60,905 bases of DNA. Origin: Bacteroidia bacterium. Lineage in GTDB: Bacteria > Bacteroidota > Bacteroidia > Cytophagales > JAAEPT01. The notes below the pieces were generated by a model. That model was not told the origin of the DNA and ran no database searches. It saw only the letters and a program-made list of their open reading frames with translations. The position numbers were made by a program, and so were the translations under genes. Shown here piece by piece: positions 28,390 to 51,360 of this stretch (position 1 is its first letter; each line of letters begins with the position of its first letter). The stretch covers positions 1 to 60,905 of the forward strand of contig JAUIJC010000029.1 in the NCBI GenBank assembly GCA_030431525.1, written 5' to 3'.

Positions 28390-28550
28390 TGGGTGATTTG
28401 CTATCGCGGACCGTGATTTTAAAAGGATTTGCTTGATAGGCAGGATGCGACCGTGATTTTAAAAAGGATGTGCCTGATGGGCAGGATGCAGCCGAACAGT
28501 GGACTGAATCATGAAAATCTCTTTATCCTTCAAATCAAGGTGCTGACAAG
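28390..28550. repeat. Solo degenerate copy of the GxxExxY-associated repeat
   Basis: Contains GGCAGGATGCGACC, GGCAGGATGCAGCC, GAATCATGA, TTTATCCTTCAAATCAAGGT: the same words as in the repeats around the GxxExxY gene at 45255-46019. No open frame is inside. Confidence 0.65.
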
Positions 28551-35308: not shown

Positions 35309-35831
35309 GGGCATTACCGCACAACTGATTAACTTCCTGCTCTACACCGCCTTGCAGGTATTGGTGATGCGAAACATCGTGCTCTTTGATGTTTCCTTCT
35401 GCTACGTCTATGTGGCTGCCCTTCTGCTATTGCCACTCAACACGCCGCAAATGACCAGCATGAGCATCGCTTTTGCCTTGGGACTATTTGTGGATATGTT
35501 CTACAGCACTCCGGGCATTAATGCCGCCGCCTGCGTCTTGATGATGTTCTTGCGTCCATTTGCCCTTAAAATGGTGTCTTCTTCCAGCCAAAGTGGCTTA
35601 TTGGAAGGCGTCAACGTACTTTCGGTAACAACAGTAGGCTTCCGTCCCTTCCTTATCTATGCCTCGGTATTGATCTTCGCCCATCATACCACGCTCTTCT
35701 TTGTGGAGGCGGCGCGTGCCAACCTGTTTTTCCAAACCCTTCAAAAAGTAGTGGCCAGCGGATTATTCACCCTTGGCATTGTGGTCATAAGCCAATACCT
35801 CTTTGACACCACCCCGCAGCGAAAGCGTTGA
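35298..35831 (+). CDS. mreD: Rod shape-determining protein MreD
   Basis: 177 residues with five to six membrane helices, the standard MreD topology. NIVLFDVSFCYVYVAALLLLPLNTPQMTSMSIAFALGLFVDMFYSTPGINAAACVLMMFLRP is characteristic of the Bacteroidota family. Overlaps the mreC end, 50 bases before mrdA. Inner-membrane partner of MreC. Confidence 0.93.
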   Translation: MGSKGITAQLINFLLYTALQVLVMRNIVLFDVSFCYVYVAALLLLPLNTPQMTSMSIAFALGLFVDMFYSTPGINAAACVLMMFLRPFALKMVSSSSQSGLLEGVNVLSVTTVGFRPFLIYASVLIFAHHTTLFFVEAARANLFFQTLQKVVASGLFTLGIVVISQYLFDTTPQRKR

Positions 35832-41677: not shown

Positions 41678-41748
41678 ATGCCCACAGGTGCGCCAAAAGC
41701 CTTATCTTGATACCACCCGTAAGATTTCTGGCAACCCCTCGCTTGGCT

Positions 41749-42816
41749 ATGGACATTTCGAAGAAGAAGAAACAATTTCCCATCATTCCGCAACTCCGGA
41801 AATACCTCACCAAATACTCCCGTGAGATTAAGGTCCCCATTAGCTACCACGACCTACTTCATTTCGAATACTCCTCGCCCATCTACGACAAGGATGGCAA
41901 AGACACCCTGTGGGAATCGGTGCTCTACAGCCCAAACGACATGGATGAAATCTATGACGGACTGAAAAACGCCTACGCTACATTGAACACTGAGGGTGAC
42001 ATTTCATTCGTGCAACACCTAATGGTTGAGCGGGTGGAATACTGCACATTTGGTAACTCCCGCCCGTTCCGCGTGCGACTTATAAACACGCTGAACGACA
42101 ACTACGGCTACATGTACATCAAGCAGGCTGATGCCTCTCGGGTGTATGGGTTGGAATTGGAGCACATTCTTTCGCCGAACCACGTCAGCTACATCACGGA
42201 CGACAACACACTCATTGAGGAGCACATCGCTGGAATTCCCGGCGACCAATTCATAACCAATTACTTTACGGATAACAACATTAACATCATCCGTATCGCC
42301 AAGGAATTCATCAAGTTCAATGAGCGTTGTTTTGTTCGCCTGTTGGGCGATATGCGCTCCTACAACTACGTGATGGACATTACCCCTGATTTTGAGGAAG
42401 CCCAATACCGCATCCGCGCCATCGACTTCGACCAACAATCCTACGAGGGAAAGAAAAACATGTATCTCCCTCAATTTTTCAAGGAGAATTATCCAGCAGT
42501 CCGTCTCTGCATTCAGCATATTAAAAAGGAAGTAGTACAACAGTACCAAAAGGAGGAACGCACCTTGATAGCACGCCGTCTCCGAAACCAGCGATATCGC
42601 TTGAAAGACTTGTTGGACATTATGACCAACGACAACATTTCCACGCCGGAAAAAACCGACCAACTCAAGCACGAACTGTCCGAGCACTTTGATGACCCAA
42701 GCTTCTTGAAATGCCGGAACATGGGCGAAATACTAAAAAAACACCTCAAGGTTACCCTGCTTAAACCCATGCGTAACTTGGAGCGTGAGGGCTCCCTTCC
42801 CATCTCAAATTATTGA
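41749..42816 (+). CDS. Hypothetical protein, possible kinase-like fold
   Basis: 355 residues from MDISKKKKQF (an upstream in-frame ATG at 41707 is less likely). Not recognised as a named family. Features: a central LLGDMRSYNYVMDITPDFEEAQYRIRAIDFDQQSYEG, where D-x5-N-Y and IDFDQ have the spacing of a kinase catalytic loop plus DFG-like metal site; an upstream YMYIKQAD (possible Lys) and YITDDNTLIEEHI. That would make it an atypical kinase or aminoglycoside-phosphotransferase-like protein, which is inference. The C-terminus is helical and basic. It lies between the TPR gene and argG. Confidence 0.65.
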   Translation: MDISKKKKQFPIIPQLRKYLTKYSREIKVPISYHDLLHFEYSSPIYDKDGKDTLWESVLYSPNDMDEIYDGLKNAYATLNTEGDISFVQHLMVERVEYCTFGNSRPFRVRLINTLNDNYGYMYIKQADASRVYGLELEHILSPNHVSYITDDNTLIEEHIAGIPGDQFITNYFTDNNINIIRIAKEFIKFNERCFVRLLGDMRSYNYVMDITPDFEEAQYRIRAIDFDQQSYEGKKNMYLPQFFKENYPAVRLCIQHIKKEVVQQYQKEERTLIARRLRNQRYRLKDLLDIMTNDNISTPEKTDQLKHELSEHFDDPSFLKCRNMGEILKKHLKVTLLKPMRNLEREGSLPISNY

Positions 42817-45254: not shown

Positions 45255-45420
45255 TTGATTTAGGGATTAATAGGATGCAGCCAGAATTCAGGATGCAGCC
45301 TGCCCATCAAATAATCCTTTTTTGTTTGAATCATGATAGACCTGATTTTTAAGATTAACAGGATGCAGCCAGAATTCAGGTTGTATCCTGCCCATCAATC
45401 AATCCTTCACAATCAAGGTT
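45255..45420. repeat. Left flank of the GxxExxY element: two tandem repeat units
   Basis: Two units of about 85 bases share the order: CATGA, GATT, GGATTAA(T/C)AGGATGCAGCC (in two words), AGAATTCAGG, CTGCCCATCAA, AATCC. The second ends with CACAATCAAGGTT. Each unit has an internal inverted pair around AGAATTCA. Confidence 0.75.
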
Positions 45421-45488
45421 CTACCCCCAGCATAACTTTTCACTTCCCAGTACCGTCTCAATATAAATTCACCAACATCATTTTTTCT

Positions 45489-45860
45489 ATGGAGTACAAA
45501 GCACTCACCCACAAAATCATTGGCTGTGCCATGGAAGTCCACAACCAACTCGGTAATGGCTTTCAAGAAAAAATCTACCAGCGTGCTTTTGCCCACGAGC
45601 TTCAATTCCAAGGCCTCGGATACCAACGAGAATTCGAAATGCCCATCTTTTACAAAGAGCTGGAAATCGGCACCCGCCGTGTGGACTTCTTTGTCGAGAA
45701 CAAAATTATGGTGGAACTAAAAGCCGTTATCCAATTGGAAAACGTTCATCTGGCCCAAGCCATCAACTACTTGGAAGCCTACCACATGGACATTGGCTTG
45801 CTCATCAATTTTGGGAATACATCTTTGCAGTTCAAAAGAGTACACCGCAACGGACCTTGA
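45489..45860 (+). CDS. GxxExxY protein (PD-(D/E)xK nuclease-like)
   Basis: 123 residues from ATG 45489, the family length. The name-giving motif is GFQEKIY (G-x2-E-x2-Y) after MEVHNQLGN; a PD-(D/E)xK-like core follows in RRVDFFVENKIMVELKA (Asp, then E-x-K), and the C-terminus LINFGNTSLQFKRVHR is standard. By recollection such genes occur as dispersed copies in Bacteroidota, Verrucomicrobia and relatives, embedded in repeated sequence; the function is unknown. An in-frame extension upstream to 45333 is repeat sequence and is not counted. Confidence 0.93.
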   Translation: MEYKALTHKIIGCAMEVHNQLGNGFQEKIYQRAFAHELQFQGLGYQREFEMPIFYKELEIGTRRVDFFVENKIMVELKAVIQLENVHLAQAINYLEAYHMDIGLLINFGNTSLQFKRVHRNGP

Positions 45861-45861
45861 T

Positions 45862-46019
45862 TGGGGAGGATTATTAGGATGGACAGGATGCAGCCCAATA
45901 CTTGAACCCTCACACTGTCTGGACCCTGATACACTTGATATTAAAGATTAACAGGATGCAGCCCAGAAACTCAGGCTGCATCCTGTCCATCAATTAATCC
46001 TCTCCTAATCAAGGTTCAG
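45862..46019. repeat. Right flank of the GxxExxY element
   Basis: One partial unit (GGATGGACAGGATGCAGCC, 45879-45897) and one full unit, in which CAGGATGCAGCC (45952-45963) is perfectly inverted at 45974-45985. It ends AATCAAGGTTCAGA, matching the AATCAAGGTT of the left flank and of the solo copy at 28390. Confidence 0.8.
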
Positions 46020-46104
46020 ACTTTTTACTGCATCTTGTCCCGAACCCAACAAACTTTTTTTTTGTTATCGAGAACAGTCAAAACATACTATGGTATAAAA
46101 CCTT

Positions 46105-46112
46105 TATCTTTG
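46105..46112 (+). promoter_or_regulatory. -7 box before the arginine leader ORF
   Basis: TATCTTTG fits TAnnTTTG. The leader ORF starts 13 bases after it, so transcription would begin almost at its ATG. No clear TTG -33 element. Confidence 0.6.
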
Positions 46113-46125
46113 CAGATTACTTACC

Positions 46126-46230
46126 ATGCGGAAACCTCTGCAAGACATATCGCCCCAAACGGCGCCTCGCGCCTGTCTCCGACGAAGGCGACGCTCACTG
46201 ACGTCCGACCTGAATCCTTCCAACAATTAA
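46126..46230 (+). CDS. Putative arginine leader peptide (five consecutive Arg codons)
   Basis: 34 codons from ATG 46126 to TAA 46228-46230. The peptide begins MRKPLQ, ends LNPSNN, and contains ACLRRRRRSL with Arg at 19-23 (codons CGA CGA AGG CGA CGC, 46180-46194); further Arg at 2 and 15. Seven Arg in 34, two-thirds of them in one run, is the pattern of ribosome-mediated attenuation leaders. It lies right after a TATCTTTG box and 64 bases before an acetyltransferase gene of the type found in Bacteroidota arginine clusters, so a role in sensing charged tRNA-Arg is inferred. I know of no name for it. It could instead be chance, since the region is GC-rich. Confidence 0.6.
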   Translation: MRKPLQDISPQTAPRACLRRRRRSLTSDLNPSNN

Positions 46231-46275
46231 GCTATAGTAAACGTGGCATGGCTTGCTTGTTGGCACCATTACCAC
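46220..46275 (+). promoter_or_regulatory. Alternative hairpins after the leader ORF (candidate attenuator)
   Basis: Fold 1: CCAACAA-TT-AAGC (46220-46232) pairs with GCTT-GC-TTGTTGG (46251-46263), eleven pairs; its left arm contains the leader stop codon. Fold 2: GTGG-C-ATGG (46243-46251) pairs with CCAT-TA-CCAC (46266-46275). The two cross each other and cannot coexist. A ribosome stopped at the Arg codons leaves fold 1 free, whereas one at the stop codon blocks it. No T-run follows, so control would be at translation or by Rho. Confidence 0.45.
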
Positions 46276-46294
46276 CTTACTAAATCAATGCGAT

Positions 46295-46939
46295 ATGCCT
46301 GAATTCTCCATTCAGGTTGCTTCTTCGAAGCACCACCAATACGCTCAAGCAATTTGCGACGAGATGGCCGAAAGCGCCAAGGCTCGTGGCACTGGCATTG
46401 CCAAACGCTCTCCTGAATACCTTCGCATGAAAATGGAAGAAGGGAAGGCGATTATTGCCTTGGAGAAAAACACCCAGCAGGTAGTGGGGTTCTGTTACAT
46501 CGAATCTTGGGGACACCAAAAATATGTGGCCAATTCTGGCCTCATCGTCTTTCCTGAGTTCCGGAAATACGGCTTGGCCCGCGAGATTAAGGAAAAGGCC
46601 TTCGAACTTTCTCGTAAGAAATTCCCTGACGCCAAACTGTTCGGCTTGACCACCAGCCTCGCTGTAATGAAGCTGAACTCAGAGCTGGGCTACCACCCTG
46701 TCACCTTCTCTGAGCTGACCGACGACAAGGAATTCTGGAAAGGTTGCCAAAGCTGCGTCAACTACCACATTCTCCAAAGCAAGGAACACAAGAACTGCCT
46801 ATGTACGGGCATGCTCTACGACCCTGCAGAGAAAAAGCGTAAGCGTTGGAGCTTCCTACAAAAGCTCCCTATCCTGAAACGCCTCAAGAAATTGAAGGAA
46901 GCAACATTTCTGACAAAGTTCTCCAAGGTGTTTTCCTAA
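46295..46939 (+). CDS. GNAT N-acetyltransferase of the arginine-cluster type
   Basis: 214 residues from MPEFSIQVASS. GNAT fold: VVGFCYIESWG, NSGLIVFPEFRKYGLAREIKEKAFELSRKKFPDAKLFGLTTS (acetyl-CoA site region), LGYHPVTFSELTDDKEFWKGCQSCVNY and CLCTGMLYDP with Cys151, 154, 168 and 170. The F-SELTDD-EFWKGC-SCVNYDIL and CLCT-MLYDP blocks match, from memory, the acetyltransferase that sits next to argG in Bacteroidota and is thought to perform the first step of arginine synthesis (acylation of glutamate). A basic C-terminal tail follows. The poly-Arg leader upstream supports this assignment. Confidence 0.85.
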   Translation: MPEFSIQVASSKHHQYAQAICDEMAESAKARGTGIAKRSPEYLRMKMEEGKAIIALEKNTQQVVGFCYIESWGHQKYVANSGLIVFPEFRKYGLAREIKEKAFELSRKKFPDAKLFGLTTSLAVMKLNSELGYHPVTFSELTDDKEFWKGCQSCVNYHILQSKEHKNCLCTGMLYDPAEKKRKRWSFLQKLPILKRLKKLKEATFLTKFSKVFS

Positions 46940-49911: not shown

Positions 49912-51360
49912 ATGCCAGAACAAACACCCGAAAACAAGCCAGCCGTCAAAGACAGTTTTCTGCAACTGACCTCTGAGTTAGGCGGATTTTTCAGCGACTT
50001 GGTTTCTCTCGAACACGATTCCAATATTCCAGGAACTATTGAGAGCATCAAAAAAGACAGTGAGTTCCGCGGACACACTGTTTGGGTGCTCATTTTCTCA
50101 ATATTTATTGCCTGTATCGGCCTCAACCAAAACTCAACAGCCGTCATTATTGGCGCCATGTTGATTTCCCCGCTCATGGGTCCTATTCAGGGCATGGGCT
50201 TGGGCTTGAGCACGCACGATCTTCCAACGCTTTTCAAGTCATTGAAAAACTTTGGCGTGATGATCAGCATCGCGATCCTGACCTCCTTTATCTATTTCAA
50301 AATCACTCCGATTACGGATGCCCAGTCCGAACTCCTGAACAGGATTCAGCCTAACCTTTTGGACGCTGTAATTGCTTTGTTCGGAGGATTGGCAGGCATT
50401 GTGGCTGGTTCCCGCACTGAAAAAAGTAACGTTATCCCTGGGGTATCCATCGCCACAGCTTTGATGCCACCCTTGTGTACAGCAGGTTATGGCCTTGCCG
50501 TGGAGCAATACGAATATTTCGTGGGCGCTGGCTACCTCTTTCTCCTCAATACGGTTTTCATCTGCTTGGCTACCTTCTTGGGCACCAAGTACATGAAATT
50601 CCCGCATGCAAGCTATGTGGACAAGCAAAAGCAATCACAGGTAAACCGAATGATTTTCGTGTTTTCCATCTTACTGCTCGCCCCAAGCGCTTACATGTTC
50701 TACAATGTGGCCACCCAGTCCATCACAAAGCAGAATATCAATCGCTTCTTGGAAAATGAGTTCAAATTCCAAAACACAAGCTACCTCAAAGCGGACATCA
50801 ACTTTAGGGAGGATTCCGCAACGGTAAACGTCTATTGTTTGGGCGATTACCTCAACCGCGAGGAGCAGGACATTTTGCACAGCAGGCTCAATAATTACGA
50901 CCTCTCCAAAGTGGATCTCATTATTCACCAAGGAGGTCAGGAAAAAGATACTTTGCTGACCAAGCAAATCTTGGAAACCAAAAACCTGACTCAAGAGACA
51001 CGGGCTACATTGGCTCTACAAATTGAAAAACTGGAACATAAACAGGGGCTAATTGACAGCCTTCGTTCCTCATTGGCTCAAAAAGACTCCGACACCATCA
51101 CCTTTAACCAATGGGCGACAAGCCTAAAAACGCTCTTCCCTGAGATTCAAAAAATTGGCTTTGCGGAAGTGTTCGAAACCGATTTCACGCAAAAAGGTGG
51201 AAAAATCCCTACCGTCATCATTGAGTGGGAAAAGCCAAAACAATCTAAAAGTCGAAGGAGAAGAACGGAAACCCCGAACTTTTCCGATGAAGAAGAGCGC
51301 ATCCAAAACTGGCTAAAGCTGAAAACAAAAGCCGATACGATTCGAATTTTGAGCTATTAA
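49912..51360 (+). CDS. DUF389 membrane protein
   Basis: 482 residues. Six membrane helices (about 62-260) with the DUF389 signatures SIFIACIGLNQNSTAVIIGAMLISPLMGPIQGMGLGL, ALFGGLAGIVAGSRTEKSNVIPGVSIATALMPPLCTAGYGLA and FLLNTVFICLATFLGTKYM. The C-terminal half (about 270-482) is soluble with a coiled-coil region (TRATLALQIEKLEHKQGLIDSLRSSL). The function of DUF389 is unknown. Stand-alone gene. Confidence 0.95.
   Translation: MPEQTPENKPAVKDSFLQLTSELGGFFSDLVSLEHDSNIPGTIESIKKDSEFRGHTVWVLIFSIFIACIGLNQNSTAVIIGAMLISPLMGPIQGMGLGLSTHDLPTLFKSLKNFGVMISIAILTSFIYFKITPITDAQSELLNRIQPNLLDAVIALFGGLAGIVAGSRTEKSNVIPGVSIATALMPPLCTAGYGLAVEQYEYFVGAGYLFLLNTVFICLATFLGTKYMKFPHASYVDKQKQSQVNRMIFVFSILLLAPSAYMFYNVATQSITKQNINRFLENEFKFQNTSYLKADINFREDSATVNVYCLGDYLNREEQDILHSRLNNYDLSKVDLIIHQGGQEKDTLLTKQILETKNLTQETRATLALQIEKLEHKQGLIDSLRSSLAQKDSDTITFNQWATSLKTLFPEIQKIGFAEVFETDFTQKGGKIPTVIIEWEKPKQSKSRRRRTETPNFSDEEERIQNWLKLKTKADTIRILSY

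Follow-up and report, generated by a model that had tools for sequence, protein, structure and literature searches.

A short, arginine-rich leader ORF stands immediately before the gene for a GNAT acetyltransferase in a Bacteroidia bacterium, in a 60,905-nucleotide stretch of DNA that was analysed as a whole (the window), and comparable ORFs precede the same gene in many other Bacteroidota. We propose that this leader, in the window and in the family at large, is a ribosome-mediated arginine attenuator, and we place the probability of this reading at roughly 0.8; the translation of the leader, its response to arginine and the direction of that response we infer from the sequence. According to the proposed mechanism, a ribosome would translate the short ORF during transcription of the gene. 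When charged tRNA-Arg is scarce, the ribosome would linger over the Arg codons in the final part of the ORF and the gene would be on; when arginine is plentiful, it would reach the stop codon and leave, the hairpins at or after the stop could form, and the gene would be off. In leaders whose Arg codons abut the stop, the presence or absence of the ribosome would be the main difference between these states. In the window the Arg run lies farther from the stop, so that a stalled ribosome would leave the stop hairpin (hairpin I) free, an arrangement closer to the classical two-position switch. An earlier note on this DNA had also arrived at arginine attenuation: the Arg ORF in relatives, the arginine gene order and the rare codons came out in favour of its reading, while its second hairpin and its four-codon ORF did not. 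The elements of the window are the following.

46105 to 46112, forward strand: TATCTTTG box, read in the sequence, 190 nt before the GNAT start (position -190)

46126 to 46230, forward strand: leader ORF of 34 codons and a TAA stop, with Arg-rich ORFs at the corresponding place in many relatives

46180 to 46194, forward strand: five consecutive Arg codons (CGA CGA AGG CGA CGC), putative control codons, from the sequence and shuffles

46220 to 46263, forward strand: hairpin I, enclosing the leader stop codon, -17.1 kcal/mol, z -3.84, none of 200 shuffles as strong

46243 to 46275, forward strand: hairpin II, a weak crossing alternative to hairpin I, -11.5 kcal/mol, z -1.10, 28 of 200 shuffles as good

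46295 to 46939, forward strand: GNAT acetyltransferase gene, presumed target, from a Pfam PF00583 match above cut-off, homologue alignment and gene order

The arrangement that the earlier note had described, a 34-codon leader with five straight Arg codons that begins (ATG at 46126) 13 nt past TATCTTTG and is followed by the GNAT gene, can be read directly in the sequence. We take TATCTTTG to be a match to the Bacteroidota -7 box, consensus TAnnTTTG. Translated, the ORF gives MRKPLQDISPQTAPRACLRRRRRSLTSDLNPSNN, and its TAA stop (46228-46230) is separated by 64 nt from the GNAT ATG at 46295. The Arg run is beyond chance: when 46100-46294 was shuffled 20,000 times with dinucleotides preserved, 3 shuffles gave a started frame with at least five consecutive Arg codons, and the run at 46180-46194 is unique among all forward-strand frames of the window, with one other on the reverse strand at 35538. 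The window copy is atypical in that its run ends 11 codons before the stop; with one Arg in its last 12 codons it falls outside the set of leaders with three Arg by which we followed the family. A TGA in another frame (46199-46201) closely follows the window run, and the leader of a same-family relative, L005, stops in frame three codons past its own run.

The earlier note had placed the leader stop within the first of two crossing hairpins, and hairpin I does contain the TAA. The pair as such stood only in part: hairpin I was matched by none of the shuffles, while hairpin II can form but folds at chance level, and no counterpart of it was seen by eye in L005. Over longer stretches the folding was not unusual relative to shuffles (46180-46300, z -0.72; 46120-46218, z -1.35), and alternative pairing of the window leader with the downstream hairpin was at chance level. 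The lack of a T-run after the hairpins, also noted earlier, was confirmed by a terminator scan of 45860-46400, in which the sole forward-strand terminator-like match (46297-46317) lies within the GNAT coding sequence; an intrinsic terminator after the leader, the mark of a transcriptional-type attenuator, was not found in the window. A four-codon ORF at 46288-46302, pointed out earlier as adding another Arg codon, is present in the sequence; no counterpart was seen by eye in L005, the sole same-family locus found, and we rejected it as a part of the switch.

The GNAT gene has homologs in 38 of the 59 genomes from the order and in 101 of 295 genomes of the class (own genome included in both counts), and in 69 of 72 genomes of one genus. 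The loci named here are the best 80 of 589 relatives and not a random sample. For the class, 99 of 102 places were used, with two weak partial matches (G172 and G357) and one place identical to L029 (G019) excluded. Seven of the 99 lie in genomes with a clear ArgR, leaving 92 loci without one; among the 92 we counted G235, whose match to ArgR is marginal (25 bits, just reaching the cut-off), has an internal stop and lies far from GNAT. Larger sets of 160, 99 and 195 leaders were chosen by Arg content and, where ORFs tied, by the number of Arg among the final four codons; this choice inflates their Arg totals. They include five extra loci and a few probably false ORFs (e.g. L108, L109 and L243). 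The amino-acid and three-Arg tests on the 92 loci serve as controls free of Arg-based leader choice.

The check proposed in the earlier note, a search for Arg-rich ORFs before GNAT in close relatives, was run and left its reading unrefuted, as such ORFs are present in L005 and in many other Bacteroidota. The leader of L005, the one same-family relative found, ends in IAIRRRICS before its stop and is preceded by the same TATCTTTG octamer. Elsewhere the residues before the stop are SPLRRRRRFIFRV in L044, SPSRRRPYMPRV in Mucilaginibacter (L071), YLSRRPRI in Chitinophaga (L069), RRRP in Pricia (L085) and Maribacter (L105), and RRRRYFFRV in Algoriphagus (L049). Even the codons of the run recur, as CTC CGA CGA AGG CGA CGA in L044 and L062 compared with CTC CGA CGA AGG CGA CGC in the window. 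No Arg leader was found in several named loci, e.g. L058, L063 and L097. In only 30 of the 160 selected leaders does TAnnTTTG lie within 45 nt of an in-frame ATG.

That the GNAT gene belongs with arginine synthesis, as had been claimed, is supported by gene order: 60 of the 78 named loci with enough sequence have an argG motif downstream, at most about 1.9 kb from where GNAT starts, and in two genomes (G049 and G399) GNAT, argC and argH share one contig within about 9 kb. This role rests on gene order; the closest solved relative of the window GNAT by profile is PA4794, so that its substrate and reaction are putative. In the window genome the arginine genes are dispersed, with the end of argG 2.2 kb upstream of GNAT and argC and argH on other contigs. 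No Arg leader was found on argC, argH or carA of this genome, and none on its argG in the 160 bases read by eye. A 369-residue ORF at 41707-42816, before argG, had no Pfam match at E 0.1.

These features of the window bear on the possibility that its ORF is a relic, the attenuator having been lost or altered in this lineage. The atypical distance from run to stop, the dispersed arginine genes, the lack of alternative pairing above chance and the lack of the second, loop-bearing hairpin described below would all fit such a history, but a run of five Arg codons that shuffling so rarely reproduces, a strong stop hairpin, Arg codons like those of L044 and L062, and a box and placement like those of L005 argue against it. 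We consider a relic very unlikely and retain an arginine attenuator as the preferred reading of the window copy.

Across the family, the signal is strongest for arginine. When the 12 final codons of ORFs preceding GNAT were compared at the 92 class loci without clear ArgR, Arg was the top outlier among the 20 amino acids, with a mean largest count of 2.86 compared with 1.59 in shuffles (z 13.9); Pro came next (z 6.3), and the remaining amino acids ranged from z -3.8 to 1.3. At least three Arg in the last 12 codons occurred at 56 of the 92 loci (11.6 in shuffles, 21 on the antisense strand), and a penultimate Arg together with at least three Arg in the last 12 codons at 41 (2.75 in shuffles, 4 antisense). 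The other 36 loci, the window copy included, have no ORF carrying three Arg in its last 12 codons. In the 160 leaders selected by Arg content, Arg occupies position -2 in 129 and position -8 in 96. Among 99 nonredundant leaders, Arg stands at -2 in 72, encoded by AGG (24), CGG (12), CGC (12), CGT (9), AGA (8) and CGA (7); because all six codons are used, it is the amino acid and not one RNA word that is conserved. Beyond this position, Pro occurs at -3 in 25 of the 99, with mixed residues elsewhere.

The choice of codons also leans toward rare ones. AGG and CGA make up 186 of 370 Arg codons in the leaders (101 and 85, respectively) and 113 of 575 (67 and 46) in the GNAT genes of the 80 named loci; the chi-square p value of 1.6e-20 is optimistic, as the rows are related and non-independent and the genome sets differ. 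At positions -8 and -9 these two codons account for 49 of 93 Arg codons. The lean to rare Arg codons is as expected for a leader that senses charged tRNA, and the sequences support this reading.

The chief rival explanation is an arrest peptide, in which the nascent Arg-rich C-terminus together with free arginine would stall the ribosome at the stop. TnaC, the leader peptide of the E. coli tna operon, ends Arg-Pro-stop; this end resembles the Arg-Pro-stop ends of some arginine leaders, and there too the switch is a ribosome at the stop codon, whereas the tna operon is catabolic and its ligand is free tryptophan. The penultimate Arg of the 129 selected leaders and a last residue that is mostly V, R, I, P or A in the 160 would suit a peptide of this kind, as would family f16, in which PR[PL]-stop is the end of the leader at 13 of 16 further loci; these have just 2-3 Arg among their 12 final codons, a small number beside a classical run. 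However, the last and the upstream residues vary, the rare-codon bias favours decoding over the peptide as the cue, and arrest at high arginine would need an inverted output logic for a biosynthetic gene. We therefore regard the arrest peptide as unlikely and favour decoding of Arg codons by an attenuator. Within f16, a nearly invariant AGGCCNTAGGCCG was seen by eye at the leader stop of L283-L296, usually over Pro-Arg-Pro-stop and followed by a hairpin; L297 deviates from it and L298 is without it.

Substitution patterns provide suggestive evidence that the leaders are translated. In groups picked by the Arg motif, pN/pS was 0.32-0.70, compared with 0.85-2.27 in other frames. For most of these groups the ratio was also taken with the last 12 codons left out. 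It was then 0.71-0.78 for Mucilaginibacter (0.99-0.93 and 0.61 in control frames), close to 1 for the Algoriphagus sets and 0.35 for four Chitinophaga sequences, so the N-terminal part of the leader is weakly conserved.

We then compared RNA structure around the leader stop across the family. In 99 leaders, the region from -18 to +24 around the stop was more stable than shuffles (z -8.0), and in a coarser profile most positions between the stop and +40 had a folding excess of 1.4-1.8 kcal/mol, those elsewhere mostly 0.4-1.0 kcal/mol. A hairpin over the stop was computed in the window and seen by eye in several lineages. However, the stop was paired or enclosed in the minimum free energy structure of 82 of the 99 leaders compared with 88.2 in shuffles, i.e. 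no more commonly than by chance; since enclosure fell below shuffles and a smaller folding excess extends along much of the region, a stop hairpin is not supported as a rule of the family. As a general antiterminator, alternative pairing between leader and downstream hairpin was weak at best: over 98 nonredundant leaders z ranged from -1.1 to -2.6, with -0.9 in a control region, and one such pairing over 99 leaders was worse than in shuffles (z +2.4).

A second hairpin occurs in part of the family. It has a five-nucleotide UAYGH loop on a stem of at least 5 pairs and was found after the stop of 40 out of 195 leaders, where 0.82 were expected. Its stem covaries, with double changes in 8 of 8 pairs and 62 cells compared with 21 when shuffled and at most 22 when slid; this test used 25 of 38 distinct hairpins, near-duplicates having been dropped by hand, and picking by stem length inflates the paired share. 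Of 11 exact matches to the pattern in 194 genomes of the order, 6 lie in GNAT leaders; the other 5 have no GNAT nearby and are apparently in coding sequence, and the hairpin was rejected as a general signal of many operons. In three flavobacteria (L075, L085 and L105), a second hairpin after the leader stop has, by eye, a shared loop AGGTGAGTCC in place of TAYGH. The conserved loop and covarying stem would suit an RNA element to which a protein or small molecule binds, with the ORF incidental. Yet the hairpin occurs in only those 40 of the 195 leaders, it is absent from the window copy and was not seen by eye in L035, L038, L044, L046 or L062, all of which keep the Arg ORF, and Arg is kept through all six of its codons. 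An RNA element of this type is thus highly improbable as the basis of the family, and attenuation through the Arg codons remains our preferred reading.

Terminator-like sites between leader and gene were found in 44 of 160 leaders, compared with 6.3 in mononucleotide shuffles, few of them with a long T-run. Two loci of family f59, L165 and L190, have a terminator with a T-run after the leader stop, the 5' arm of which can also form a duplex with the end of the leader (computed energies of -27.1 and -37.7 kcal/mol, respectively, without shuffle control). These two conform to the textbook terminator/antiterminator design; L147, the third of the three full GNAT loci of this family, has no T-run terminator. 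At all other loci, the output may come from Rho-dependent termination, from translation or from the stability of the transcript, and the Arg codons at the stop and the hairpin with the conserved loop would offer handles on it at sites without a U-tract.

The usual account of arginine control centres on the ArgR repressor. Of 295 genomes of the class, 12 had a match to ArgR (PF02863), one of them the marginal G235, and 283 had no match. Seven of the 11 genomes with a clear ArgR also have GNAT, each with argR immediately before that gene in the same orientation. At these seven loci Arg was not enriched upstream of GNAT (z -2.2), and a penultimate Arg in an Arg-rich end was found at one, in a 13-codon ORF. 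An arginine-decoding leader, if real, would fill a regulator gap in the many ArgR-less genomes of the class. More tentatively, Bacteroidota outside the ArgR lineages might share a widespread attenuator of new build, in which Arg codons abut the stop and the signal is a ribosome still on the leader end, the UAYGH hairpin gives output without a U-tract through a further factor, and leader and ArgR interchange on the same gene. We lean against this broader reading, our confidence having been lowered by the count of enclosed stops.

Classical trp, his, leu, thr and ilv attenuators have in common with the arginine leaders a short ORF that contains end-product codons and a biased codon choice (treated, in the part available to us, in PMC1183508). 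Candidate alternative hairpins are a further likeness, and L165 and L190 share the classical terminator/antiterminator as well. Unlike the classical ones, the leaders described here would respond to arginine, their Arg codons crowd the stop in most relatives, and there is mostly no long T-run. If the reading is true, arginine is an added specificity for attenuation. Bacteroid-trp RNA has a role as a trp leader, and so differs from the arginine leader in its operon. It is listed as Rfam family RF01692, and the accessible portion of PMC2864571 presents it as a likely cis-regulatory RNA of Bacteroidetes. At gathering score, Rfam matched only five tRNAs in the whole window, with no match to Bacteroid-trp or any other family, and a search of 18 loci to E 5 gave three matches to miRNA models, all below gathering.

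Signs of leader peptides have been noted in this phylum. In Flavobacterium psychrophilum, strong clues were reported for leader-peptide attenuation at structured 5' regions before amino acid operons, a likeness to the present case, with no arginine leader named in the main text of PMC9723704 as available, supplement aside. Short leader-peptide-like ORFs occur in long 5' regions of B. thetaiotaomicron (PMC7366714, in part), and leader genes near structural genes have been discussed with Bacteroidetes included (PMC4833913, in part). By 2010 leader peptides were known in Proteobacteria and Actinobacteria, to which Firmicutes were added (PMC2965389, in part); other uORF motifs are treated in the available parts of PMC8632094 and PMC6429828. 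The carA leader peptide of Pseudomonas aeruginosa, mentioned in the accessible part of PMC4997734, likewise precedes an arginine/pyrimidine gene and differs in phylum, in gene and in its pyrimidine-tied attenuation. While attenuators are known for other amino acids, none for arginine in Bacteroidota turned up in the literature as covered by titles and the openings of abstracts (most subscription papers and supplements being beyond reach).

Apart from the leader, the window holds eight copies of CAGGATGCAGCC with at most one mismatch, where 0.17 were expected, at 45271-45985, 28482-28493 and 50340-50351. Six of them flank a GxxExxY/PDDEXK_3 gene (45333-45860), and two lie within a long inverted repeat at 45950-45987; CAGGATGCAGCC may mark a family of repeats associated with that gene.
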